A model generated the notes under the pieces. The model saw only the letters and a program-made list of their open reading frames with translations, was not told the origin of the DNA and made no database searches. A stretch of DNA of 40,785 nucleotides from contig JACRLJ010000100.1 of NCBI GenBank assembly GCA_016215105.1, positions 1 to 40,785 of the forward strand, given 5' to 3'. Source of the stretch: Candidatus Hydrogenedentota bacterium. Lineage in GTDB: Bacteria; Hydrogenedentota; Hydrogenedentia; Hydrogenedentales; SLHB01. Shown piece after piece: positions 3,760 through 33,425 of the stretch; position 1 is the stretch's first letter, and each line of letters starts with the position of its first letter. Both the position numbers and the translations under genes were made by a program.

Positions 3760-6456
3760 ATGGAGACCGCGCGCGCCATGCCCAAACGCATGTATACGAT
3801 CTCGGCGACTCTAGTATGCGTCGTGGCGGCCGTGATATTCGTGTGGACCCTCCGTACTCAGCCCACTTCGGATCTGCCCAGCGCAGTGACTTCCAACCCG
3901 TCCGCAGTCACCCCGCCATCTCCCGTTCCATCGGCCCTCTCCCCCACTATTGCGGCAGCCCTGCCGGCCGCCGGCGAAGCCGCCATCGGCGTTGCGCGCG
4001 GGCAAGTGCTCGATGGTAAGGGACAGCCGGTCGCGGGAGCCGCCGTTTCCGCAAATCGCGTCTGCCTCAACGCCAGCGCCGAGAGGGACGTTGCACTGTC
4101 TACATCCTCCGACAAGAACGGGGTCTTCTCTCTCCCCGCCCTGCCGGTGCTCGTACAACCCGGCCGAACTGGCGAACGATGCTATTGGCGTATTGAAGCG
4201 CGCCACGACGGTCAAATCGGCTGCGTCGAATTCGATCCATCGATCTCTGTGCGGGAGGCGTTCATCTATATCGCGATGCAGTCCGAGGCCTCGTTGAAGG
4301 GAGTCGTAACAGACGAAAGGGCCTCCCCAATACCCGGCGCGATAGTCCGTATTGACGGGCGCGCCGCCAATCCCGTCCAGCGAGAGACCTTGACCTCCAG
4401 TTCAGGAAGTTTCTCTCACGAACACCTTCCCCCAGGCCGCTATCTCCTGAACGTAATTGCGGCCGGATTCGCCCCGCTCGAACTCGAAGTCACGACCTTG
4501 TCCCGAGATCCAATATCCCTTCGCCTTAGCACTGGCAGCGCCATCACCGGACGTGTGGTGAACCGCCAAGGCCAAGGGGTTCCAAATGTCGTTCTGAAAG
4601 CGGCGCGCAACGCCCTCAACAAACTTCATGAAACTTCTTCGATTTCGGGAAGCAGCGGAGTATTCCGCTTTGCCGATCTCACCCCCGGAAGCTACCGTAT
4701 TGTTCTGGACGCCGAGTCCAAGGAGTTCGTGCTGGCCGCGCCACCGGGAATGCTTGACGTGCCGCCAAATCAAACCGTTGAGAAGGTAACGGTCGTCGTA
4801 GACGCCGCGGCGGCCATCGCCGGAACACTCGTGGACCGTTCCACCGGGAAAGGCGTAGCCCATGTCCGCATCCGCGCCGAAAGCCACGAGGCGTTTCCGC
4901 ACGGCGATTTGGCGTGGACCGACGCTACGGGCGACTTTGTCATTGGGGGCTTAGGGGCCGGTTCTTACGCGGTCGATCCGCTTCATGCGTGCGCAAGCGG
5001 GTATCTTCTCGCGGTAACGACGCGCTATGGAGAGACCACCAAGGGCATTCGGCTCGAATTGAATCTCGTCCGCGCCATACGCGGGATTGTTCACGACAAG
5101 AAGGGAACGCCTGTCGCCCATGCGTCCGTGGCGGCGCAGGACGCGACGACCGCCAAGAGCATCTTCGTGCTTACCGATGACGCTGGCGCCTTCATGCTCT
5201 ATCCCACTCGCGAGATGGCGAGCGTATACCTTCAAGCTACCAACGGACACGCGCTCAGCCAGCGGCAAGGTCCCATCGACATTCCGGAGGTTGGACTAGG
5301 CGGACAGGATCTGACGCTCGTCGAAACCGCTGAAGTAGAGGGCGTTGTCCAAGCGGCTGGTCATGGCCTGTCGCAACGCGACATCCTAGTCGAGCCAGTG
5401 GGTCAGGCGCTCCCCTCGCTGTTCGAACTCGCCGGTACCATGAAGTCACACCTCGAGGGCGTCTATGCGTCACGAAGCGCGCCGGGCGGACATTTTCGAC
5501 TCACGCTCCCCGCGCCAGGCGCATACGATGTGTACGCTCAGGACAAGGAAAAGCGATCTGAGAAACACCGCGTTGAGTTGAACCCAGGCACGCTTGAATC
5601 CGGCGTGATACTTGTCTTGAACGATCCGCCAGGCGCGCTCACCGGAACCGTACTGCTTGGCGGACGGCCCGTCGCCGATGCGCTAGTCTCGGCGGGCGCG
5701 ACCGATCAAACCGTAACCGACGCGGCGGGGGCTTTCCACTTCGACAGCCTCGAACCGGGCGAAGCGACGCTGACCGTGGTTTGGCGTCCGAACGCCGCGC
5801 AGGCCACTCCCAATTACACGCATACGGAACGCGTAACGATTGTCTCCGGCGAGACCGGCAAGGTGATTATCGATTTAGGGTCCGGAGTCGGCGCTATTGA
5901 AGGGCGAGTTACCGACGCGGGCACGCCAGTGGCCGGGGCCCGCGTCAGCATCGTGGACGATGACTTTGAAGCAGGCGCCATTTCGACCGCCGCCGACGGT
6001 TCGTTTCATTTGGAAGGCATCCCGGCGGGTACCCACAACATCGTAGCGGCGGGCGCCGATGGGGATTCCCGGTCCGAAGAAGTCGAGGTCGTCCGATCTC
6101 AAACGGCCCGCGTAGGCCTTGATCTTGCCAGCGGTGTCCTGGAGGGCGCGGTCAGCGGCCTGCAACCAAATGAGCAAGGAGGACTAATATTGCTTCCCGG
6201 CCAGGTTTCCGCGACCGAGGCCACGCCCGATCAGATAACGCGCTGGCTCGCCGCCGCGGCCGGATCGGCTGAAGTTGATGCGGAAAACAACTCGTTCCGT
6301 ATTGAGAGCGTCAAACCAGGAACCTACACCCTGCTCTGGGCCGTGCTACCGGGCGCGGGGCGCAATCAGGAAATCCCGACCGGCCCTATTCCGGTCAACA
6401 CGCGGCCGGTAGAAATCACCGCCAACGAGCCAACCCGCGCCGACCTTCAGCGCTAA
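3760..6456 (+). CDS. Membrane-anchored carboxypeptidase-regulatory-like repeat protein (898 aa)
   Basis: An N-terminal membrane anchor (about residues 12-31) precedes a Pro/Ser/Ala-rich linker (about 35-75). A series of about eight beta-sandwich repeats of the carboxypeptidase regulatory-like (CarboxypepD_reg/MSCRAMM) type follows, with units starting near residues 76, 177, 260, 352, 437, 525, 625 and 710. Each shows the signature GxVxDxxGxPVxGAxV and then LxPGxYxL. The last ~95 residues form a different module with LLPGQV at 811-816 and a late FRIESVKPGTYTLL; the same module closes the sigma-fusion protein at 27947-31447. It is probably anchored in the inner membrane and exposed to the periplasm. 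No enzyme motif is visible. Starts at 3760, 3778 and 3790 are all possible. It is divergent from moeB, and its stop lies 19 bases from the end of the convergent ABC gene. Confidence 0.85.
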   Translation: METARAMPKRMYTISATLVCVVAAVIFVWTLRTQPTSDLPSAVTSNPSAVTPPSPVPSALSPTIAAALPAAGEAAIGVARGQVLDGKGQPVAGAAVSANRVCLNASAERDVALSTSSDKNGVFSLPALPVLVQPGRTGERCYWRIEARHDGQIGCVEFDPSISVREAFIYIAMQSEASLKGVVTDERASPIPGAIVRIDGRAANPVQRETLTSSSGSFSHEHLPPGRYLLNVIAAGFAPLELEVTTLSRDPISLRLSTGSAITGRVVNRQGQGVPNVVLKAARNALNKLHETSSISGSSGVFRFADLTPGSYRIVLDAESKEFVLAAPPGMLDVPPNQTVEKVTVVVDAAAAIAGTLVDRSTGKGVAHVRIRAESHEAFPHGDLAWTDATGDFVIGGLGAGSYAVDPLHACASGYLLAVTTRYGETTKGIRLELNLVRAIRGIVHDKKGTPVAHASVAAQDATTAKSIFVLTDDAGAFMLYPTREMASVYLQATNGHALSQRQGPIDIPEVGLGGQDLTLVETAEVEGVVQAAGHGLSQRDILVEPVGQALPSLFELAGTMKSHLEGVYASRSAPGGHFRLTLPAPGAYDVYAQDKEKRSEKHRVELNPGTLESGVILVLNDPPGALTGTVLLGGRPVADALVSAGATDQTVTDAAGAFHFDSLEPGEATLTVVWRPNAAQATPNYTHTERVTIVSGETGKVIIDLGSGVGAIEGRVTDAGTPVAGARVSIVDDDFEAGAISTAADGSFHLEGIPAGTHNIVAAGADGDSRSEEVEVVRSQTARVGLDLASGVLEGAVSGLQPNEQGGLILLPGQVSATEATPDQITRWLAAAAGSAEVDAENNSFRIESVKPGTYTLLWAVLPGAGRNQEIPTGPIPVNTRPVEITANEPTRADLQR

Positions 6457-18742: not shown

Positions 18743-18763
18743 CCGACGCACAGCACTAGTGAC

Positions 18764-18805
18764 CGCGCCTCCCTTGGGTAGACCTCAGGGAGGCGCGACG
18801 TTTTT
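18764..18805 (+). terminator. Rho-independent terminator after EF-G
   Basis: A perfect 11-base stem, CGCGCCTCCCT (18764-18774) with AGGGAGGCGCG (18787-18797), encloses a 12-base loop. It is followed by ACG and five Ts (18801-18805). It lies 22 bases after the EF-G stop codon and separates that gene from the blaI promoter. Confidence 0.88.
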
Positions 18806-18878
18806 CTGCTCGGACACCCTGGAGTTATGTAGTCTGGCCGCAGTTCTCGACAGATGGGGCGATGTTCGTCGGAGGGGG

Positions 18879-18925
18879 TTGACAGCATCGCACATCTGTG
18901 CGATAATATCTCACAAGTGTACGAT
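18879..18925 (+). promoter_or_regulatory. Promoter with twin operators for the BlaI-type repressor
   Basis: TTGACA (18879-18884) and GATAAT (18902-18907) are 17 bases apart. Operator 1 (18887-18904) is ATCGCACATCTGTGCGAT, with perfect 8-base arms around two bases; it fills the spacer and overlaps the -10 box. Operator 2 (18908-18925) is ATCTCACAAGTGTACGAT, matching in six of eight arm positions. The two start 21 bases apart, two helical turns, so both face the same side of DNA. The shared pattern is ATCNCACANNTGTNCGAT. A ribosome site AAGGAG (18929-18934) precedes the ATG. BlaI/MecI proteins bind ACA/TGT-type dyads, so autorepression is the natural reading. Confidence 0.8.
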
Positions 18926-18941
18926 ACTAAGGAGTGCGGTC

Positions 18942-19340
18942 ATGGATAAGCGACCCGGCATATCGGCGGCGGAGTGGACGGTGATGCAGGTGTTGTGGCG
19001 TGAATCTCCGCTTTCCGTACTTGAAGTATTCGAGGCGTTGCAGGGCCGCTCGGAGTGGCATCCGAAAACCATACGTACCCTGATTGGACGCCTGCTGGCA
19101 AAGGGTATTGTGGCCAGAGAGAAGCGCGCGGGCGTGTACCGTTTTTCCCCACGGTACACCGAAGTAGAGTGCGTGCGTGAGGAAAGTCAGTCGTTCTTGG
19201 AGCGGTGCTTCGCAGGAAAGGCGCAGCCGATGCTCGCGCACTTTATCGAACACGAGAACTTAACGCAGGAAGATGTGGCCTCGCTTCGGGCGATGTTGGA
19301 CGCGAAGATCCGCCGGGAGCACGACGATGACAGTCGCTAG
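18942..19340 (+). CDS. BlaI/MecI/CopY family transcriptional repressor
   Basis: This 132-residue winged-helix repressor begins with ISAAEWTVMQVLW, the classic BlaI/MecI first helix, followed by a recognition region near HPKTIRTLIGRLLAKGIVARE and the wing YRFSPRY. The C-terminal dimerisation helices end in an acidic-basic tail. In the family, a partner M56 membrane peptidase triggers cleavage or release of the repressor and derepresses target genes. The ATG at 18942 has AAGGAG seven bases upstream. The gene overlaps the M56 gene by 14 bases, the standard blaI-blaR order. No beta-lactamase gene is in the window, so the regulated target is unknown. Confidence 0.92.
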   Translation: MDKRPGISAAEWTVMQVLWRESPLSVLEVFEALQGRSEWHPKTIRTLIGRLLAKGIVAREKRAGVYRFSPRYTEVECVREESQSFLERCFAGKAQPMLAHFIEHENLTQEDVASLRAMLDAKIRREHDDDSR

Positions 19341-21252
19341 CGGCATTGTCGAGCCGGCTGTCGGGGCGATCACGCGGCTTTCGGCGCAAGCGGCGGTGTT
19401 GGTAATCCTCGTCGCCGCGGCGCAGTGGGCGTTGGGGAACCGTATAAGTGCAAAATGGCGATACATATTGTGGAGTCTGCCGTTTCTTCGCCTGGTAATC
19501 CCTTGGAGCATTCCGGCGCCGTTCAGCGTTTACACCACGCTTCGGATTGCAGGCGCCCGTGCCCCACTCCACTGTCCGTATCAGCGTTTGACAGAGTTGG
19601 TCTCCGTCGAGCCAGCCAACGTAGCCGGAAGCGTGGCGTCCGGGCATAATGGGTCACCGTGGTTGTGGGTCGCTGTGATTTGGCTGATGGGACTGGCCGT
19701 GCTGCTCGGATTCTCGCTATTGCAGGTGTTTCGCGTCAGGCGCCAGACTCGGCGCTACGAAGTGATAGCGGATGCGTCCATTCTCGCCTTGCTCGCGCGG
19801 TGCAAGCGGCGTCTGACAATTCACACGCCGGTGACCCTGCTGGCGGCATCGGACGCTGCGGGACCGGCTCTATTGGGCTACTTTCGTCCGCGGGTGTTGT
19901 TGCCGCGACGAACACTGTTGCCCGCATCGCGATCCCATTTGCGCTTCGTGCTGTTGCACGAGCTGGCGCACCTAAAGCGGCGCGACATTCTTACCGGATG
20001 GGCAATCCACGTTCTTCTGTCAGTACATTGGTTCAATCCGATTCTATGGTGGGCGAAACGGCGTTGTACTGCCGATCGAGAATTGGCATGCGACGCGGAG
20101 GTCCTGTCGGTATTGGGGCGTGACGAACGGCGCGCGTACGGTCATGCCTTGCTGGACCAAGTTATGTCCGGACCGTTCGCGGCCCGGAGTCCGGGGCTGG
20201 CGGGAGTCTTGGAAGGGACTACGACGGTCGAGCGGCGCATCGCGATGATTGCAGAATTTCGCGCGCCCTCCCTGGGAAGCGCCCTCGCGGGGCTGGCGCT
20301 ATTGACAGTTCTCGGCGCGACGGCCCTGACGGACGCGCAAGTGGGCTCGACGGACGCAGGGAGCATTTCCTCGGTGGCGCGTGATGTGAAACCGTTCCCG
20401 AAATCTGCCCGCGAGCTTTGGCCAGGAGCGGAACCTGTGACTCGACCAGTAGGCGCACAGCAAGTGGCGTCGCTGAGTACGACAACGAGACCGGATGCGT
20501 CCTTGGAGATTGATTGGCTAAGGATAACGGAAGACGCGGGCGCCGCCAGTCAAACGGACATCGCTTCTGACGCGACCAATGCGCGGAAACCGCCGAAAAC
20601 TGCCGAGGCGCCGAGTACTGTATCGCGATCGGACTCGGGCGCAAAGCCTGTTAGCACGGCGCCGGCCATTAGACAGGCGCAGCGCGGCGAGGAACAAAAC
20701 ACCAGCAAGCCCGATTCGGGTTCGACAGATCTTGCGTTGGACCAAGGGGCAATCCTTTTCGCGAGCCATCGTGACTTCGGGCAATCGCCACCGAGCCGGA
20801 TTCGTCAGAGATTGGAGTCCACATTGGCACAGCGTCAACGTGCGCCGGCGGGTGAAGGAGTCGTTTCCAACGCTGTCACCGTAACACCGGTGATACCTGA
20901 GAACGCCGTGCGCACGTACAACCGCGCTGAGCATGAAGTGAAGAGCGGCGCCACCTCGATTCGACCGAAGAAGATTAGGAACAAGATAGGAGCTACATGG
21001 CGGTCGGTGCGGGGTGTCTTTGGCTCGGATGGAACACAGTCCACGGTTGAACGGGGCGATCGCTTTGATCCTGCGTTTGCGCGCAGTATCGTCGGGCCGG
21101 CCGCCAACGGAGGGAACAGCAGCGTGATGCCCACGGATGAACCAGCGCAGGGTGTCGCAGTGACAATGTCGTTTACACAGGCATCATTTCGGTCACTACC
21201 GAAACTGGAGTGGGGATTTGCCAACGGATCGGGGGCACGGTCCTCGTCATAA
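19327..21252 (+). CDS. M56 family (BlaR1-like) membrane metallopeptidase with long disordered tail
   Basis: This 641-residue membrane zinc peptidase is paired with the BlaI-type repressor. Spans lie at about residues 7-36, 44-62 and 112-135. The zinc motif H211-E-L-A-H215 follows, and E252 in ADRELACDAEVL is the likely third ligand. A further span is at about 315-334. In BlaR1 the part after the last span is a penicillin-binding sensor domain. Here it is about 305 residues rich in Ser, Thr, Ala, Pro and charged residues, with no SxxK or KTG pattern, so the signal is probably not a beta-lactam. The ATG at 19327 has GGGAG seven bases upstream and lies inside blaI; earlier in-frame starts lack one. 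OmpH follows after 127 bases. Confidence 0.88.
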   Translation: MTVASGIVEPAVGAITRLSAQAAVLVILVAAAQWALGNRISAKWRYILWSLPFLRLVIPWSIPAPFSVYTTLRIAGARAPLHCPYQRLTELVSVEPANVAGSVASGHNGSPWLWVAVIWLMGLAVLLGFSLLQVFRVRRQTRRYEVIADASILALLARCKRRLTIHTPVTLLAASDAAGPALLGYFRPRVLLPRRTLLPASRSHLRFVLLHELAHLKRRDILTGWAIHVLLSVHWFNPILWWAKRRCTADRELACDAEVLSVLGRDERRAYGHALLDQVMSGPFAARSPGLAGVLEGTTTVERRIAMIAEFRAPSLGSALAGLALLTVLGATALTDAQVGSTDAGSISSVARDVKPFPKSARELWPGAEPVTRPVGAQQVASLSTTTRPDASLEIDWLRITEDAGAASQTDIASDATNARKPPKTAEAPSTVSRSDSGAKPVSTAPAIRQAQRGEEQNTSKPDSGSTDLALDQGAILFASHRDFGQSPPSRIRQRLESTLAQRQRAPAGEGVVSNAVTVTPVIPENAVRTYNRAEHEVKSGATSIRPKKIRNKIGATWRSVRGVFGSDGTQSTVERGDRFDPAFARSIVGPAANGGNSSVMPTDEPAQGVAVTMSFTQASFRSLPKLEWGFANGSGARSSS

Positions 21253-25205: not shown

Positions 25206-25592
25206 TTAGGGCCTCTTAGGGGCAAGTTGCTGGTACGCGAGGTAGAAAAGCACGCCGAAGGCCAAATCCAGGACGGCGAACGGTTTCCACATGCCGGGGA
25301 TACCCTGGGCAACCCAGTAGCCGAAGGCGTTGCCGCAGTAGCATACCTTGAGAAGAATGCCGTAGGGTATCAGTTGCCGATTTTCGGCAGGCTTCCTGGC
25401 CACCGCGATGAACATCAGCGCAAAAACAATCAGCAACCCAGCCGGGAATCGGACGTACGCGAAGTGATTCGGCGGCGGGACTGAGAACCAGGTGAACGGG
25501 GCGTCCGGGAATAGCAAAAACGCCACGCCCAGAATGCCGTCGTAGGCCGCCGCGATCCAGAACAGGACGGGAATGAACTTCTCGGCTTTCAT
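25206..25592 (-). CDS. Small four-span membrane protein (128 aa), unknown
   Basis: From the ATG at 25592 the protein has about four hydrophobic helices (around residues 8-27, 40-60, 72-90 and 98-118), short loops and a basic C-terminus (APKRP). The loop after the first helix reads LFPDAPFTWFSVPPP. No family is firmly recognised. The start overlaps the radical SAM stop by four bases (ATGA), which argues for coupled translation and a linked role. An in-frame start at 25628 exists but lies inside the radical SAM gene and is less likely. Confidence 0.7.
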   Translation of the reverse strand: MKAEKFIPVLFWIAAAYDGILGVAFLLFPDAPFTWFSVPPPNHFAYVRFPAGLLIVFALMFIAVARKPAENRQLIPYGILLKVCYCGNAFGYWVAQGIPGMWKPFAVLDLAFGVLFYLAYQQLAPKRP

Positions 25593-26917
25593 GGCAGTGC
25601 CCTTTCCGCGTGAATGCGGTCGCGCCACCGTTTTTTGAACGTGGACCGCCGCCAGTTGGTGAGTTCGTCGCTATAGAGCTTGACGCCTAATTCACGGAAG
25701 CCCCGGGCCAGTTCCTCGATGCTCATTCGCTTGGGTTGGTAGGTGATGTCAAACAGGGTACACCGCTTCCAGAGGTCCTTTTCCAAGAGCCGGCCTTCGC
25801 GCTCCAGGCGTTCGTGGAGCGGGGTGCCTGGAAACGGGGTCTGAATGGTGATCTGGACGTCGTAGAGTTCGGTGTCCATGGCGAACTCGAGCACCGCGTT
25901 GAAAATATCGGGGCCTTGCGTATCCATGCCCAGTACGAAGCAGCCGTTCACGGCAATCCCATGGGACTGAATCTTTCGTATCGCCTCTCGGTAGTTGGTC
26001 CACTGCCCCATTTTCCAGTTGTTATTCATCTCGACGCCGTCCAGGTCCGCCTCCAGGGGGCTCTCGAGGCCGATCAGGACTTGGGCGCAACCGGAGGCGC
26101 GCATCTGACTCAGTAGTTCGTCACCCCGGCTCACGGAGATATCCGTCTCGGCAAACCATCGGATGTTGCGCTTCCTCAGTTCCGGCATGAGAGCCCGCCA
26201 ATAGTTGAGGTCGACGATGGCGTTGTCGTCGGCGAATTCGATGAAGGGGCGATCCCAAAGGGTGAGTATCTTGTCGAGTTCGGCCAGGACCTTTCCCAAC
26301 GGTTTCTGCTTGTACTTTTGCGCGAGAATCACCGAGCTCGCGCAGAACTCGCAATGGTGCGGACAGCCCCGGCTGGTTTGAACTGTCAGGCGGTTGTATT
26401 TCGAGATGTCCAACAGTTCGTAGGCGGGCATCGGGGCGTCGTTGAAATCGAGGTCGCCGTCGCGGACGCCGTAGAAGGTCTGCATATTGCCGGCGGCGCG
26501 ATCGTGCAGCACGGCAGGCCAGCTCGACTCCCCTTCACCAATGACGACGGCGTCGGCGTAGCGGGCGGCCTCCTCGGGCACACAACTGACGTGCGGACCG
26601 CCGAGCACCGTCTTCACGCCCAAGGCCCGGTAGCGTTGGGCGAGTTCATAGCCTTCTTCCATCTGCGCGGTGTAGCTCGAAATGCCGACGAGGTCAAACC
26701 CGTTGGGGAGTGTTCGCATGGTGCGGATGTCATCTACTTCGATGTAGGTGATCTCGTGTTCCTTCGGGGTCATGCCGGCCAGGGTGAGCAGCCCCAGGCT
26801 GGGCAGCGACGCAACGGTCTTGCTGCGTTCAACGAACCCGGGCAGCGTCAGCCCGAGCCGGAGCAGTTCCTCGTCGTACGCGCGAATACCACTCATGGCA
26901 ATGAGACCGATTCTCAT
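25589..26917 (-). CDS. B12-binding-domain radical SAM protein (DUF4070-type C-terminus)
   Basis: From the ATG at 26917 the protein has 442 residues. The N-terminal ~150 residues form a cobalamin-binding-like domain (FDLVGISSYTAQ, then VLGGPHVSCVPEEAARYAD and VIGEGE). The radical SAM cluster motif CxxxCxxC is C185, C189 and C192, after TSRG. A typical barrel follows, with FADDNAIVD and FVLGMD, and the C-terminal part carries TPFPGTPLHERL and ITYQPKRMSIEEL, as in DUF4070 proteins. These enzymes methylate or rearrange unactivated carbons, often in lipids or natural products; the substrate here is unknown. The gene overlaps both small membrane-protein genes by four bases each, so the product or substrate may be membrane-linked. 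Confidence 0.88.
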   Translation of the reverse strand: MRIGLIAMSGIRAYDEELLRLGLTLPGFVERSKTVASLPSLGLLTLAGMTPKEHEITYIEVDDIRTMRTLPNGFDLVGISSYTAQMEEGYELAQRYRALGVKTVLGGPHVSCVPEEAARYADAVVIGEGESSWPAVLHDRAAGNMQTFYGVRDGDLDFNDAPMPAYELLDISKYNRLTVQTSRGCPHHCEFCASSVILAQKYKQKPLGKVLAELDKILTLWDRPFIEFADDNAIVDLNYWRALMPELRKRNIRWFAETDISVSRGDELLSQMRASGCAQVLIGLESPLEADLDGVEMNNNWKMGQWTNYREAIRKIQSHGIAVNGCFVLGMDTQGPDIFNAVLEFAMDTELYDVQITIQTPFPGTPLHERLEREGRLLEKDLWKRCTLFDITYQPKRMSIEELARGFRELGVKLYSDELTNWRRSTFKKRWRDRIHAERALP

Positions 26918-27126
26918 TTGAACAGCACTCCTATGATTAGGAAAGCCACGGCCAGGATCAGACTCGTCACGGGAATGAAGAACAGGTGTCGAAAAGGCTT
27001 GATGAACGCCGATAGATAGCAGACGAGCGGCATCGTGATGGCGCCGAGAATCAAGAGGTGTGAACTCCACTGCGCCGCGTGACGCGTCTCGGGACGGTCA
27101 AAGCTGACGTAGAAATGCCTATCCAA
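26914..27126 (-). CDS. Small membrane protein, probably N-terminally truncated
   Basis: A TTG-initiated frame of 70 residues has two hydrophobic segments (about residues 22-40 and 48-68) with the conserved-looking SSHLLILGAITMPLVCYLSA and FRHLFFIPV. The stop overlaps the radical SAM ATG by four bases. Upstream, an ATG at 27152 in a different frame reads MAVVNVYAAWIG, which looks like the N-terminus of the same kind of protein. From memory, homologues run from such a start through a middle region of about 45 residues into this C-terminus. The gene therefore appears to have lost its middle with a frame change. It may still be translated from the TTG, or may be a pseudogene. Confidence 0.5.
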   Translation of the reverse strand: MDRHFYVSFDRPETRHAAQWSSHLLILGAITMPLVCYLSAFIKPFRHLFFIPVTSLILAVAFLIIGVLFK

Positions 27127-27946: not shown

Positions 27947-30900
27947 TCACTTGATTTCCAGATCGGTGGTGGTTGACTGATTGTCGCTCAGCGCCAGTGT
28001 GGCGCAGGCGAAACGTGCGACGGCGTAGCGATCAGGGACTTGGACTGATACTGGCGGCGCGGCTACTACGGCGACTGTGTAGTCTCCGGCGTCGAGGCCA
28101 CGAAAGGCATAGTCACGGTCTTGGATGATATTGTCTATCAAACGGAGTAGGCGCGGTTTGAGGCTTTCGACCAGTTCACGAGTAAGTTCTTTGATCTCGA
28201 CTTGGCCCGGTAGCAGAACCAGGATGGCGCGCTCTTCCTTTGCCATTCCTTTCAGCTTGACGGTGATTGAAGCGCCACCCACATCCATATCCTGATATGT
28301 TGGCCCATCGGCTTTCACATCTACCGTCAAGGATGCGAATGGGGCCAATTCATCGCCGTCCACAATCGCAGTCAGTTGATATTGTCCTGGATCGACTCCC
28401 GCGATTTGGTAGTAACCGTGTTCATCCGTTGACGCTGCCGGATATTCGGAATTGAGTGGAAGCGTTCTTGGCTCAAGGCGAATTAGCGCACCGGATTTGG
28501 GCTGTCCGGATATGCGAAATGTTCCTTCCAACACACCGGCGCCTGCGGCGAGGTCGAATCGCACGGTCGTTACCTTTCCAGCCTCGACGACGGCATGCTG
28601 CTGTCCGGCCATTCCGCTGCCGGGTAGTGACACCATCATATTGATGAGCGGCGCAGGGGAAATGTGGTCAAGGTAGAAATGTCCGTCTGGCCCGGTGCAG
28701 ATCTGCCTCTGGCTTCCTTCGCCGAATGCGCCAGCGTAGTTGTTGTGAGCAACGACCGTCGCGCCGGTCACCGGATTTGATCCCTTTGTAACCCAGCCCT
28801 CGATGGCGCCAGTGGATCGTGAACTCGCCACCAGTTTCACCTCGCGGAGCGGCTCACCAGCCTGCACGTCTATTGCCTTGGACACCGCAGGCGAATCAAG
28901 AGACCATCCGTCAAAATAGGCTTCAAGGTTGTACTTTCCGGGCAAGACGTATGAGAACGAGAAGGCGCCCCACCATGTCATCATTCCCTGCGCGCCAGGG
29001 TGGCTGCCTGACCGTCCTCCGAGACCTGACGCGGGCAGAACGATTGCGAGGCCCGGGTCCAGAGGCCGGAGAACCACGATAGCATCCTGCAATCTCTTTC
29101 CCTGTTCGTCAACGACATCCCCTTCGATTTGCCCGACCGGTTCGATTCTTACGACGAGCCCTTGCAGCCCTTCATCTCCAAGATCAAAGGGTCCTATACA
29201 CCGGCTGACACCCTTATCGTGGACAGCCTGTATACGCAGACCTTGCGTAGGGCCTGGAGTGAAGAGCACGAATCGGCCCAAATCGTCCGTTACGCTTCCG
29301 ATAGGGGTCACCGACTTCAAGGCGAAAGCAAGACGGTTGTCCTTGTCAGAAGCCGCGAGGCACACCGCCGCGGACACGAGGGGCTTTCCGTCCGAGTCCT
29401 GAACTACCCCGGATATCCGGAAACGCTTCTCAAGCACCAGGTCAACGGCGTCGTACGCTTGTCCGGGATTCACGGTAATGGCTGCCGAGCATGGAGGAAG
29501 CGCTTGGTGGGAACTCAGCGTAACTGTGCTTTCACCCTTCAGTCCGGCTATCCGAAACGTCCCCGCGGCGTCGGTCCTCTCTCCGCCCACCAAAACGCCT
29601 GGCAAGCCCGCTCCCGTGCCCGCATCAATCACACGTCCGGCCACCGTGCCACCGTCTATTAGTAGAAGCGTAACCGGGTTTGGCGCGAGATCATTATCAG
29701 ACAACTCGATCTTGACGGGCCCGTCTTTCAGGCATAGGCTACCGCGCGATCTCGGCGATATCGTGATGGTACATTCAGATTCTGGCTTGTCCACTGCAAG
29801 ATTGAATGAGCCATCCGTGCCAGACGTCGCGACCCCAAGGGACATCCCGTTGCTTGACCATGCGGTGACTTCCAGATTGGGTACGGGATCATTGGTGGAA
29901 GCATGGATAGTTTTCCCGCGCACAATATGTTGTGGGTCGGGTTTCGCGAGTTGAATTTGGATTCCTTTCGTACCGGCTTGCACCCCCGGCACGCGGTTCC
30001 GTGAATAGCCTTCGGCGGAAGCCGTGAGTAGGTAGGGACCTGTGAATAGAAAGTCCGTTGCGAAGTGTCCGTTGGAGTCCGACGACACTCTCATATAATC
30101 AACGTCCGAGTGATGCCGGCCTGCGCCATCGACGAAATCAAACATGAGGTCAACGCGAGCGCCTGAAATTGGAGATCCGGATCGATCTGTCACACGACCT
30201 TCGATCTTCTTAGCGGGGGACAGGACAAGATTGGTGAAATACTCGCGAACCAACGGGTCACCCCGAAAGATTGACTTGCCATACATTTCACCCAGCGCGG
30301 CGTGCAGGCAAAGTCTGTTGTCGGCGATGTAGTTGGCGCTGTCGACCAGCAGCGGAACATCGGTGATTTCGTAGTCTCCGTGTTCGCCGGTGACTGTCGT
30401 CCGATGATAGCTGCCAAGCTTCTTGACGCCATCGACATCTGCGAGCCGCTCCAGCACGACTTCGACGCCGGGCTGCGGCACTCCCTGTGAATCCAGAACG
30501 CTGCCGCGGACTACTCCCACGTCCAAAGTGGGTGTCCTGGGCGGGTCCGGGAATGATCCCACTGCGCCAGATGCCGACTTAATCTCGGGCAGAACCGAGG
30601 CGCTCGGTACCTGGGGTTTCTCGATCACACTCTGGGCCGACGTAGCTGCCCTTGCGACAACTTGAGGCCTTGGCTCGCGGGTGAAATAGGCGTATCCGGC
30701 GGCTGCCAAGAGGGCGCTTATCAGCAGTCCGGACGCTGTGGCCTTTATCGCGAACAGAACGGGCGACGATACCGCAGCCGACGAAGCGAGAGCGCCGGAC
30801 GCAGCAGGAATGGTTTTGAAGCTTGTCAGCGCAAGCCTGCCCAACGAGGCGAGCAGTCCGGCCGGGGCCGCCTCGGCAGTGCGAGCCGCCAGGAGCGCGC

Positions 30901-31447
30901 TGAACGCCGCGGCGGTCACCATGACACCCCTCCGGTTCAGGACTACCCTCACCTGCTCAATTCCGTTGGCGATACGTTGGGTGACGGCGGAGCGGCTTAG
31001 TCCGAGGTCGCGGGCGATTTCGTCGTGGGTTTCGCGTTGGAGGAAGTGGCGGATTAGCGGGTCGCGGAAGCGTTCGGGGAGTTGGGCGATGGCTTCGTCG
31101 ATGTGGAGTTGGATGTCGTCCCAGGTGGGTTCGACGGTTTTGGGCGCGGCGGTTGCGGCGGCGTGTTCGCGTTTGTGGCGGCGGATGTCTTGTCGGATAC
31201 GGTTTAGGGCGAGCGAGGTCGCGGCGCTGTGGAGCCAGCCGCCGAGCGAGGTGCGGATGCGTGCGCGGCCTGAAGCGAGTTGGAGAAAGCAGTCTTGGGT
31301 GACCTCCTCGGCGTCCGACGGGTTTCCGAGCACGCGTTTGCAGGTGGCGAAGACCATGCCGGCGTAGCGCGTTACGAGGTCGTTGAACGCTTCAGCGTCG
31401 CGGTGGTCGGTCCATCGTTTAAGTAGCGCGGCATCGACTGGGCTCAT
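27947..31447 (-). CDS. ECF sigma factor fused through a membrane helix to an exported repeat array (1166 aa)
   Basis: Residues 1-170 are a sigma-70 ECF factor: region 2 with DAEEVTQDCFLQL (45-57) and region 4 with LPERFRDPLIRHFLQRE then THDEIARDLGLSRSAVTQRI (about 123-159). A hydrophobic Ala-rich helix (176-205) and a clear membrane span (231-253, LFAIKATASGLLISALLAAA) follow, then a Pro/Ala/Ser linker. From about 310 to 1050 there are about eight carboxypeptidase-regulatory-like units (starts near 311, 413, 505, 600, 675, 765, 872 and 965). The last module holds LLPGQV (1078-1083). The sigma half should be cytoplasmic and the array periplasmic, making this a one-piece envelope sensor and transcription factor. 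No anti-sigma gene is adjacent. GGGAGG lies before the ATG. ECF factors with C-terminal membrane extensions are known from planctomycetes; this domain pairing is less familiar. The frame is uninterrupted. Confidence 0.9.
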   Translation of the reverse strand: MSPVDAALLKRWTDHRDAEAFNDLVTRYAGMVFATCKRVLGNPSDAEEVTQDCFLQLASGRARIRTSLGGWLHSAATSLALNRIRQDIRRHKREHAAATAAPKTVEPTWDDIQLHIDEAIAQLPERFRDPLIRHFLQRETHDEIARDLGLSRSAVTQRIANGIEQVRVVLNRRGVMVTAAAFSALLAARTAEAAPAGLLASLGRLALTSFKTIPAASGALASSAAVSSPVLFAIKATASGLLISALLAAAGYAYFTREPRPQVVARAATSAQSVIEKPQVPSASVLPEIKSASGAVGSFPDPPRTPTLDVGVVRGSVLDSQGVPQPGVEVVLERLADVDGVKKLGSYHRTTVTGEHGDYEITDVPLLVDSANYIADNRLCLHAALGEMYGKSIFRGDPLVREYFTNLVLSPAKKIEGRVTDRSGSPISGARVDLMFDFVDGAGRHHSDVDYMRVSSDSNGHFATDFLFTGPYLLTASAEGYSRNRVPGVQAGTKGIQIQLAKPDPQHIVRGKTIHASTNDPVPNLEVTAWSSNGMSLGVATSGTDGSFNLAVDKPESECTITISPRSRGSLCLKDGPVKIELSDNDLAPNPVTLLLIDGGTVAGRVIDAGTGAGLPGVLVGGERTDAAGTFRIAGLKGESTVTLSSHQALPPCSAAITVNPGQAYDAVDLVLEKRFRISGVVQDSDGKPLVSAAVCLAASDKDNRLAFALKSVTPIGSVTDDLGRFVLFTPGPTQGLRIQAVHDKGVSRCIGPFDLGDEGLQGLVVRIEPVGQIEGDVVDEQGKRLQDAIVVLRPLDPGLAIVLPASGLGGRSGSHPGAQGMMTWWGAFSFSYVLPGKYNLEAYFDGWSLDSPAVSKAIDVQAGEPLREVKLVASSRSTGAIEGWVTKGSNPVTGATVVAHNNYAGAFGEGSQRQICTGPDGHFYLDHISPAPLINMMVSLPGSGMAGQQHAVVEAGKVTTVRFDLAAGAGVLEGTFRISGQPKSGALIRLEPRTLPLNSEYPAASTDEHGYYQIAGVDPGQYQLTAIVDGDELAPFASLTVDVKADGPTYQDMDVGGASITVKLKGMAKEERAILVLLPGQVEIKELTRELVESLKPRLLRLIDNIIQDRDYAFRGLDAGDYTVAVVAAPPVSVQVPDRYAVARFACATLALSDNQSTTTDLEIK

Positions 31448-31494
31448 GTTTTCCTCCCCCGTAGCTGTTAAGGATGAACGGGTATTGGTTAAGA

Positions 31495-31579
31495 GGACGT
31501 TTTGGCAAAACGTCCCTACCCCGGTGGCCGAAGGGTTTAGGGATAGACGTTTTGGAGAAATGTCCCTAACCGGTGGCCG
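31495..31579. repeat. Hairpin-bearing direct repeat in the sigma-gene leader
   Basis: The first copy (31495-31530) begins with a perfect hairpin, GGACGTTTTG and CAAAACGTCC around one G (31495-31515), then CCTA and CCGGTGGCCG. The second copy (31545-31579) repeats AGACGTTTTGG...ATGTCCCTAA and CCGGTGGCCG with a weaker hairpin. About 29 of 35 bases agree by hand alignment. Both lie 48-132 bases before the sigma-fusion start, within its probable leader. Confidence 0.6.
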
Positions 31580-31701
31580 GTGTTGGCTACGGATTCTACC
31601 CCTATGTCACCGCCGGGGCGAGTTTGGTAAGTCTTGGAGGGCTTGGGGGGCAAGATGCGGGGACCCGCGCTCGGCGAGCGCGGGGGTACTGGGGGCGTTC
31701 G

Positions 31702-31853: not shown

Positions 31854-33425
31854 CTAAAATGTCAGGTGGCTTTGGTTACCGTTGGGGGAGAAGACGGCTC
31901 GGAGGTTGTCGCGGGATATCCAGAGGCCGTAGGTCCAGATTGCCGCGAAGAGTCCCACTAGAACGAGGGCGGCTATCGCGCGGCGGCGGAGAGTCCGTTT
32001 GGCGGAAGGATTGCTGGAGCGCCAGCGGGCGCGGATCGTGGGGAGCAGGATCATACCGTTGGCGGCGAGCAGGGCTAGACAGGGGATGATGACGAAGTGG
32101 AAGCGGGCTTCGCCGAAGGTGAGGCTGTGCAGGGCAGTGTAGAAAAGGATGGGCAGGAGGAGAAGGACGAGTTTCTTGTCGTAGCGGTCGGCAAAGAGGG
32201 CGCCGACGACCGAGAATAGCGTTAGAAGCACAAAGGGGCTAAGTAGGAGGAGCAAGCATAAGGTCAGGACGAGCGGCGGCAGGTGTCCGATGAAGTTGTA
32301 GGAGTAGGCGAAAAGAAAGAGGCGGTGTTCGAGGCCCCAGAAGTGGGCAAACTTGGGCGCGATAAGGCCAATCGATTTCCAGGGGTGTTCGCGCATAAAC
32401 GCGAGGGCGCGTTCCTTGCCCCAGTTGTGCATGACCACGTCGCTCTCCGCGGCGTCCAGGTTGTAACGCCGCCGTAGTTCATCGGAATCGCTGACGGGGT
32501 TCTTGTAGGAGAGCAGTTCCTGATAGAGCAAGCGCCTTACGTCAGCGTCGGTCAATCGGACCTTCGACGATTGGGAGAGCCTGGCGAGATTGTCCTTGAT
32601 GAATTCGTTGACGAGATCCTGCGCCGCATCCATATTGAATGTGCCGTCCGCTCCGTCGCGGTAGCCGATGTACAGGTTGTAGCCGGTACGCGTGTCGAGG
32701 TAGACGAACTGTCCGGTGAGGCGGGTGTTGCGGACGGACCACGGCGTGACCACCGCCGCGACAATGACGAAGATGATCGCGATGTTGATCGCGGGACCTT
32801 TCCAGGTCCGTGGCGGCCACAGCATCCACAGAAAGATCAGCGGCAACGCGTACGTAATCTCCGGACGAATCAAAATGCTCGCGGCAAGGCACAGACCGGC
32901 GCAGGCGGAGTTGAGGCGGGACCGGCGCTCGTCCGCCTTGAGCAAGAAGAGAATCGCCAGCAGGAGAAGCGGGATGAAGATGTTTTCCGTGAGCAGGCCA
33001 ACCGAATACAGGATCAACGGAATGTACAGCGCGACGAAGAGGCCGCCGAGGCGTCCGGCCCGCTCACCAAACACGCGCTGGCCGATGAGATACGTAAATA
33101 CCGGCGCTGACGCCGCAATGACAGTTTGGATGATTCGGGCAACGAAATAGCTCGGACCGAAAAGGTAGTACACCCCGGCTAGAAAGAACGGGTAGCCCGG
33201 TGGACGAAACGACGACAGCAACCCGAAGTACCAGCGATAGCCGTTTCCGGCGGCTAGGTTGCGCGCCAAGAGATGGTATTCAATTTCGTCAAGACTGAGG
33301 TCGGCGCGGCCCGCAGCCAGCACGAAGATCAGACGCGGCACAAGCGCGAGCGCGTAGAGGAGGAGCGCGTATTGCAGGGGGCTGGGTGTTTGCAGCCATC
33401 GGTCGTACGCGCGTCGAGAGGTCAT
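31854..33425 (-). CDS. GT39/PMT-like membrane glycosyltransferase (ArnT-type)
   Basis: This 523-residue polytopic protein has about 11-12 spans and the signature of the dolichyl/undecaprenyl-phosphate-sugar-dependent GT-C group. An acidic loop after the first span, LSLDEIEYHLLARNL, contains the catalytic-type Asp and Glu. FRPPGYPFFLAGVYYLFG follows, and later SILIRPEITYALPL and VVTPWSVRNTRLTG. The C-terminal half has a soluble loop (about 265-350) and a final set of spans. Such enzymes move a sugar from a lipid carrier to lipid A, protein or glycan on the periplasmic side. The acceptor is unknown. The ribosome site before the ATG is weak. Confidence 0.82.
   Translation of the reverse strand: MTSRRAYDRWLQTPSPLQYALLLYALALVPRLIFVLAAGRADLSLDEIEYHLLARNLAAGNGYRWYFGLLSSFRPPGYPFFLAGVYYLFGPSYFVARIIQTVIAASAPVFTYLIGQRVFGERAGRLGGLFVALYIPLILYSVGLLTENIFIPLLLLAILFLLKADERRSRLNSACAGLCLAASILIRPEITYALPLIFLWMLWPPRTWKGPAINIAIIFVIVAAVVTPWSVRNTRLTGQFVYLDTRTGYNLYIGYRDGADGTFNMDAAQDLVNEFIKDNLARLSQSSKVRLTDADVRRLLYQELLSYKNPVSDSDELRRRYNLDAAESDVVMHNWGKERALAFMREHPWKSIGLIAPKFAHFWGLEHRLFLFAYSYNFIGHLPPLVLTLCLLLLLSPFVLLTLFSVVGALFADRYDKKLVLLLLPILFYTALHSLTFGEARFHFVIIPCLALLAANGMILLPTIRARWRSSNPSAKRTLRRRAIAALVLVGLFAAIWTYGLWISRDNLRAVFSPNGNQSHLTF

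Follow-up and report, generated by a model that had tools for sequence, protein, structure and literature searches.

A predicted one-piece transmembrane ECF sigma factor with an exported beta-sandwich array belongs to a large paralogous family in Candidatus Hydrogenedentota

The window analysed in this study, a complete contig (C54) of 40,785 nucleotides from a draft genome of 6.68 Mb, encodes on its minus strand a protein of 1166 residues in which an ECF sigma factor, a predicted transmembrane helix and a long chain of exported repeats are combined in a single polypeptide. We consider it somewhat more probable than any other outcome, with a probability of roughly 0.55, that this protein acts as a one-piece transmembrane ECF signal transducer, whose tethered and self-inhibited sigma part would be released by regulated proteolysis. 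This reading builds on the domain architecture, the predicted topology, the expansion of the family, a conserved segment behind the sigma domain, a shared upstream motif and the lack of a partner anti-sigma gene, each of which is either evident from or strongly supported by computation. That the segment inhibits, that proteolysis frees the sigma part, what kind of signal is received and that the motif serves autoregulation are inferences. The gene is a member of a large paralogous family rather than one odd case, a point that was absent from the earlier note on this DNA.

Results

Architecture and topology

The features of the gene and its upstream region are as follows:

27947..31447, minus strand: complete gene, 1166 amino acids, composed of ECF sigma domain, juxtamembrane segment, transmembrane helix and exported repeats
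31592..31630, minus strand: promoter-like motif TTACCAAACTCGCCCCGGCGGTGACATAGGGGTAGAATC, candidate autoregulatory ECF promoter (de novo EM, genome scan)
31452..31460, minus strand: ribosome-binding site GGGGGAGGA, graded good to strong from its sequence
31187..31378, minus strand: Sigma-70 region 2, residues 24-87 (Pfam PF04542, Sigma70_r2, 2e-10)
30947..31102, minus strand: Sigma-70 region 4, residues 116-167 (Pfam PF04545 / PF08281, Sigma70_r4 matched at 119-167, 2e-9)
30821..30937, minus strand: conserved two-helix segment, residues 171-209, candidate on-board inhibitor (conservation in 97 relatives, AlphaFold2 helices)
30683..30745, minus strand: predicted single transmembrane helix, N-in, residues 235-255 (conservation, AlphaFold2, charge bias)
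30524..30682, minus strand: Pro/Ala/Ser-rich linker, residues 256-308, predicted to be disordered (pLDDT of about 30 from residue 262 on)
27950..30523, minus strand: predicted exported beta-sandwich array, residues 309-1166, with eight carboxypeptidase-regulatory-like repeats and a terminal module (Pfam, models)
27950..28252, minus strand: divergent terminal beta module with short helices, residues 1066-1166, in common with the protein encoded at 3760-6456

The frame is open throughout from an ATG at 31447. The source organism belongs to the Hydrogenedentota and is no planctomycete, and the nearest relatives are Candidatus Hydrogenedentota. Its neighbours on the minus strand encode, as judged by Pfam, a PMT_2-type glycosyltransferase (31854-33425, minus strand) and a B12-binding radical SAM protein (25589-27070, minus strand), separated from it by about 0.4 and 0.9 kb, respectively, and no anti-sigma gene adjoins it among the neighbouring frames searched with Pfam. 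The uninterrupted frame and the missing anti-sigma neighbour, both of which had been described in the earlier note, are thus confirmed. A search of Rfam gave no match.

The two sigma regions proposed in the same note were both recovered in the domain search, with matches in Pfam and, above cut-off, to TIGR02937, and in fold searches. They are connected by a short linker without a region 3, which is the arrangement of ECF sigma factors (sigma-70 group 4). With residues 1-300 as query, profile and fold searches retrieved the ECF sigma factors SigW, SigE and RpoE in alignments that are confined to the sigma part, with SigW and SigE as matches in the PDB. The domain was modelled at high confidence by AlphaFold2 with 97 relatives in the alignment, throughout which R38, Q51 and L72 are invariant. 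By its domains and fold, the protein is an ECF sigma factor, and the fused group to which it belongs may already carry a number in the ECF group classification.

The transmembrane helix was modelled at residues 238-255 and has a conserved hydrophobic core at 237-253, close to the span of 231-253 claimed before. All 97 relatives possess it. Its inner flank is rich in lysine, the commonest residue at positions 235 and 236, and position 252 is most often occupied by W, Y or F. The best 19-residue stretch past region 4 shows a mean hydropathy of 2.18, with values of at least 1.4 in every relative. The median distance between region 4 and the start of this stretch is 58 residues, and in 90% of the 97 relatives the helix begins 46-67 residues past region 4. 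The net charge of the N-terminal flank exceeds that of the C-terminal flank in 57 of these proteins and the reverse holds for 18, which supports the prediction, also contained in the earlier reading of sigma, membrane span and repeats as one polypeptide, that the sigma part resides in the cytoplasm and that the repeats are exported. The predicted protein thus contains a single helix behind region 4 followed by an extracytoplasmic domain, as found in IutY- and ECF52-like proteins.

In the exported part, Pfam identifies six significant stretches of CarboxypepD_reg (1e-50), and inspection reveals eight carboxypeptidase-regulatory-like repeats and one divergent terminal module, hence about nine units, in line with the about eight beta-sandwiches counted previously. 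A second model covering residues 262-1166 is all-beta with a mean pLDDT of 76, its first 46 residues (262-307) being disordered. Its fold matches are arrays of extracellular beta-sandwiches, among them pilins, SdrD and macroglobulins. Their TM-scores over the whole chain are low, so that they indicate a class of fold and no particular function. Repeats of this fold are widespread structural elements and may have no sensory role.

An orphan protein of 898 residues, encoded at 3760-6456 on the plus strand of the window, combines an N-terminal hydrophobic segment with repeats of the same kind without a sigma domain. In an alignment with the sigma protein it covers residues 241-1125 of the latter, and the terminal LLPGQV module is common to both, which bears out the C-terminal module that had been noted as shared.

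A conserved segment between sigma domain and membrane

Residues 171-209, located between region 4 and the transmembrane helix and followed by a variable spacer, form a segment whose conservation is comparable to that of region 4 positions. Its pattern, RRG.....L...L.....AEAAP..L...LG[KR]LAL.G, is reflected in the number of the 97 relatives that retain G174 (89), L182 (87), P195 (90) and L198 (84) and, in the second half, L202 (82), K/R204 (92), A206 (86) and G209 (73), and it also occurs in Armatimonadota and several Planctomycetota, as for example in AEAAPATLVAALGKLALAG. AlphaFold2 predicts helices at 179-190 and 196-208, the second of which is placed without confidence (pLDDT 55-59). In 1.37 Mb of related loci, the segment occurs on sigma frames and on no separate anti-sigma-like protein, with the sole exception of the frameshifted relative L105. 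Its size and the predicted pair of helices would suit a small anti-sigma element, and on the basis of sequence and model the segment may act as an on-board inhibitor of the sigma part.

Three relatives with a split layout were considered as a Rosetta stone for the mechanism, and none of them decides it. In L099 (202-3500), the sigma gene overlaps by 4 nucleotides with a frame for a protein containing a transmembrane helix and exported repeats and the segment has been lost, which implies that it is not indispensable; in L105, a frameshift in the metagenome-assembled genome places the segment in the next frame; and in L131 the frame stops right behind it.

Among the anti-sigma factors of the genome, the five zf-HC2 domains found are all encoded directly next to short stand-alone ECF genes (C92, C50, C85, C87, C47) and none beside a fused one. 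Zinc-finger partners and fused transmembrane extensions are hence mutually exclusive in this genome, a statement that applies to the zf-HC2 type and is less exhaustive for other types, and this distribution fits an extension that replaces the partner. Two FecR matches exceed the cut-off, one of them in the same frame as the zf-HC2 domain of C50. As candidate proteases, the genome encodes M50 site-2 proteases, one a frame of 621 residues, and one S41 protease, which constitute weak evidence since they are housekeeping enzymes of most bacteria.

A family of paralogs with diversified exported parts

The genome contains 47 Sigma70_r2 loci, 17 of which show a hydrophobic helix behind region 4. Sixteen of these fused genes encode exactly one such helix and, except for C25 with its 322 residues, all of the sixteen are long enough for a large exported part. 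In a tree of the sigma domains, the fused genes fall into three groups of 8, 4 and 5, equivalent to three changes on the tree, although they may have a single origin. The group of eight, termed family A, includes the window gene and is found in 36 of the 68 genomes of the Hydrogenedentota phylum with 1-14 copies each and amounts to at least 163 members in these 36 genomes if the tabulated counts are added. More distant members are found in Planctomycetota, Armatimonadota and Kiritimatiellota, and tandem copies at L063, L065 and L086 point to local duplication.

Between the eight family A paralogs, the mean identity is 49% for the sigma domain, 44% for the juxtamembrane segment and 27% for the exported part, the latter being about the level of shuffled sequences (26%). 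A conserved sigma domain attached to an exported part whose similarity is near random is what one would predict for paralogs with common outputs and different inputs. Most fused paralogs contain CarboxypepD_reg repeats according to Pfam, and CarboxypepD_reg matches were obtained for 62 of the 89 exported parts across the family, as against three for PD40/WD40.

Other combinations were encountered on the way. In one family A paralog (L010:4912-7140), CarboxypepD_reg is replaced in the exported part by matches to STN, the secretin/TonB short domain, which has a signalling role in FecA-type receptors. In the same genome and in Pirellulaceae/Schlesneria metagenome-assembled genomes, ECF sigma domains are fused to about 6-8 transmembrane helices (L018:4588-6312, L074:554-2425, L107:1468-3177), and a protein of 541 residues in the same genome unites an ECF sigma domain with a protein kinase and a FliG_C-like domain (L028:2966-4591).

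A promoter-like motif shared by the family

About 80% of the family genes are preceded by the common motif TTTgcCcAatt-N8-GCGGCGTCaTTtgaGTaGAA. De novo EM on 99 upstream regions yielded one strong ungapped motif, with a log-likelihood ratio of 440 compared to 118 for one shuffled control, and anchoring on it revealed a second conserved block, TTTGCCcAA, about 16 nucleotides upstream of the GTCATT part. In our own reading, the blocks would correspond to a -35 element, a spacer and a -10 element with a start near GTAGAA. The motif is located at a median of 36 nucleotides upstream of the sigma frame, and at about 145 nucleotides in case of the window gene. Scores above 12 were obtained for 70 of 82 regions in Hydrogenedentota, four of ten in Planctomycetota, none of five in Armatimonadota and for the Kiritimatiellota member.

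When trained without this genome, the motif, scanned over 806,752 positions, places six of the genome's eight family A genes at ranks 1-6 and the remaining two no lower than rank 30. The other sigma genes score at or near background, and three fused genes outside of family A reach 11.5-12.4, just over the 99th percentile of random stretches. In a search of the whole genome, the best five matches all precede family A genes, the first with an E-value of 0.003; since the model used there included sites of this genome, the leave-genome-out ranking is the fair test. Its top ranks for six of the eight genes suggest autoregulation, which, with possible cross-activation among paralogs, would be the simplest reading of the motif. 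The whole-genome search revealed no confident target beyond sigma genes, a weak candidate being C41:50398 (E 0.32), 44 nucleotides before a frame of 411 residues with an N-terminal hydrophobic stretch and no Pfam match.

Between the promoter-like motif and the start codon of the window gene, at 31494-31516, lies the perfect palindrome GACGTTTTGGCAAAACGTC. It is found at ten loci genome-wide at up to one mismatch and at none for the reversed control. One of the copies precedes a further fused sigma gene (C136:22339), and a degenerate version is present ahead of the nearest paralog (L009).

Discussion

In the proposed mechanism, the N-terminal ECF sigma domain would reside in the cytoplasm, where the two-helix segment behind region 4 and the transmembrane anchor would hold it at the membrane in an inactive state. 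The outer chain of beta-sandwiches would receive a signal, which would differ between paralogs, and its arrival would lead to the trimming of the exported part and a subsequent cut within the membrane by a site-2 protease. Once free, the sigma part would associate with RNA polymerase and direct transcription from the shared promoter, that of its own gene and perhaps also those of other family members.

A precedent for a tethered and subsequently released sigma factor is provided by the hybrid IutY of Pseudomonas putida (ECF243), which Prc trims and RseP cuts (PMC5411451). Demonstrated release is rare among one-piece sigma sensors, IutY being the sole case according to a review on extended ECF factors (PMC8999054). 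Both proteins consist of one polypeptide with a cytosolic ECF sigma domain, a single transmembrane helix and a large periplasmic part, without a separate anti-sigma gene. In IutY, however, the periplasmic part is the anti-sigma domain of a cell-surface signalling system that works with a TonB-dependent receptor, whereas the window protein, in which Pfam detects no FecR-like domain (the FecR matches of the genome being located elsewhere), contains a long carboxypeptidase-regulatory-like array behind a conserved cytosolic segment and belongs to large paralogous families. Cleavage, which has been demonstrated for IutY, is proposed from sequence for the window protein.

A C-terminal transmembrane helix with an extracytoplasmic extension and predicted proteolytic release is also described for ECF48, ECF52 and ECF53 of Actinobacteria, such as SCO4117 (PMC8999054). 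These carry a zinc-finger anti-sigma domain and, in case of SCO4117, a carbohydrate-binding domain; the Pfam search detected neither in the window protein, zf-HC2 giving no match. The WD40-type factors of planctomycetes (ECF57) are equally C-terminally extended and expanded in planctomycete-like lineages, but their extension is a WD40 propeller in place of carboxypeptidase-regulatory-like sandwiches, and Pfam finds no WD40/PD40 match in the window protein. In Bacillus subtilis, pro-sigmaK stays bound to the membrane until a site-2 protease releases it, in resemblance to our proposal, although it is not an ECF factor and has a short pro-sequence and no sensor domain. No carboxypeptidase-regulatory-like extension is named in the accessible text of the review (PMC8999054), and the literature searched contained no paper that combines a sigma factor with such repeats and no relevant one on sigma factors of Hydrogenedentota. 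Family A thus appears to be undescribed in the papers searched, while the extended or tethered type of ECF factor as such is already known.

Several alternatives have to be weighed against this mechanism. That the gene is an assembly or annotation fusion, a concern raised by the earlier note, is next to inconceivable, since the fused layout recurs in 17 genes of the genome and is identical in 97 distinct relatives from many genomes and several phyla, with the helix at a similar distance past region 4 in 90% of them; these paralogs and relatives rule out the artefact. It is a more serious, if unlikely, proposition that the sigma factor works while tethered, with RNA polymerase bound at the membrane and activity switched by a conformational change or clustering via the transmembrane helix without any cleavage. 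The nearly fixed distance between region 4 and the helix (46-67 residues) would agree with such a mode, as would the recovery of some planctomycete ECF sigma factors from detergent-soluble fractions (PMC8567305), but the literature searched yielded no characterised sigma factor with activity in the tethered state, and IutY, the closest characterised protein, requires cleavage (PMC5411451).

Decidedly unlikely is the view that residues 171-195 form an internal, membrane-inserted element resembling a signal peptide, where a cut by signal peptidase would start release or remodelling. Positive residues at 171-173 (RRG), a hydrophobic stretch at 175-186 and the ensuing A-E-A-A-P have this character, the AxA-AP-like site is retained in many of the 97 relatives (A193 in 78, P195 in 90), and the anti-sigma factor RsiP is cut at site 1 by signal peptidase (PMC8844934). 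Yet L182, L198, L202 and K/R204 are conserved in the manner of a packing interface that extends past the supposed cut, and the lysines directly ahead of the main transmembrane helix imply a cytoplasmic location for the loop, at odds with a crossing helix at 175-186. With respect to the upstream motif, it is somewhat unlikely that it serves as the site of another regulator or as a lineage-specific housekeeping promoter. TAGAAT resembles a housekeeping -10 box, the link of the motif to the sigma protein is a prediction from sequence, and the assignment of its elements is ours; however, a housekeeping promoter would occur everywhere, whereas the motif is nearly confined to family A. This alternative touches one step and is compatible with the tethered-sigma explanation.

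On a broader scale, we tentatively propose, as a possibility of somewhat less than even weight, that in Hydrogenedentota and some of their relatives a large set of one-component transmembrane sigma factors stands in for many sigma/anti-sigma gene pairs. Every member would have a separate outer receptor and an integral two-helix anti-sigma element, and all would activate themselves from a common type of promoter. If true, the self-restraint of a sigma factor could be tested directly in a laboratory host on a family for which a promoter is predicted, whose control segment is conserved and whose outer parts have diversified; such a family would also supply natural modules for coupling external signals to promoters. 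A membrane sensor of another kind is encoded in the same window at 18759-21252 (plus strand), where a BlaI-type repressor (Penicillinase_R) is followed by an M56 BlaR1-like sensor of 659 residues.
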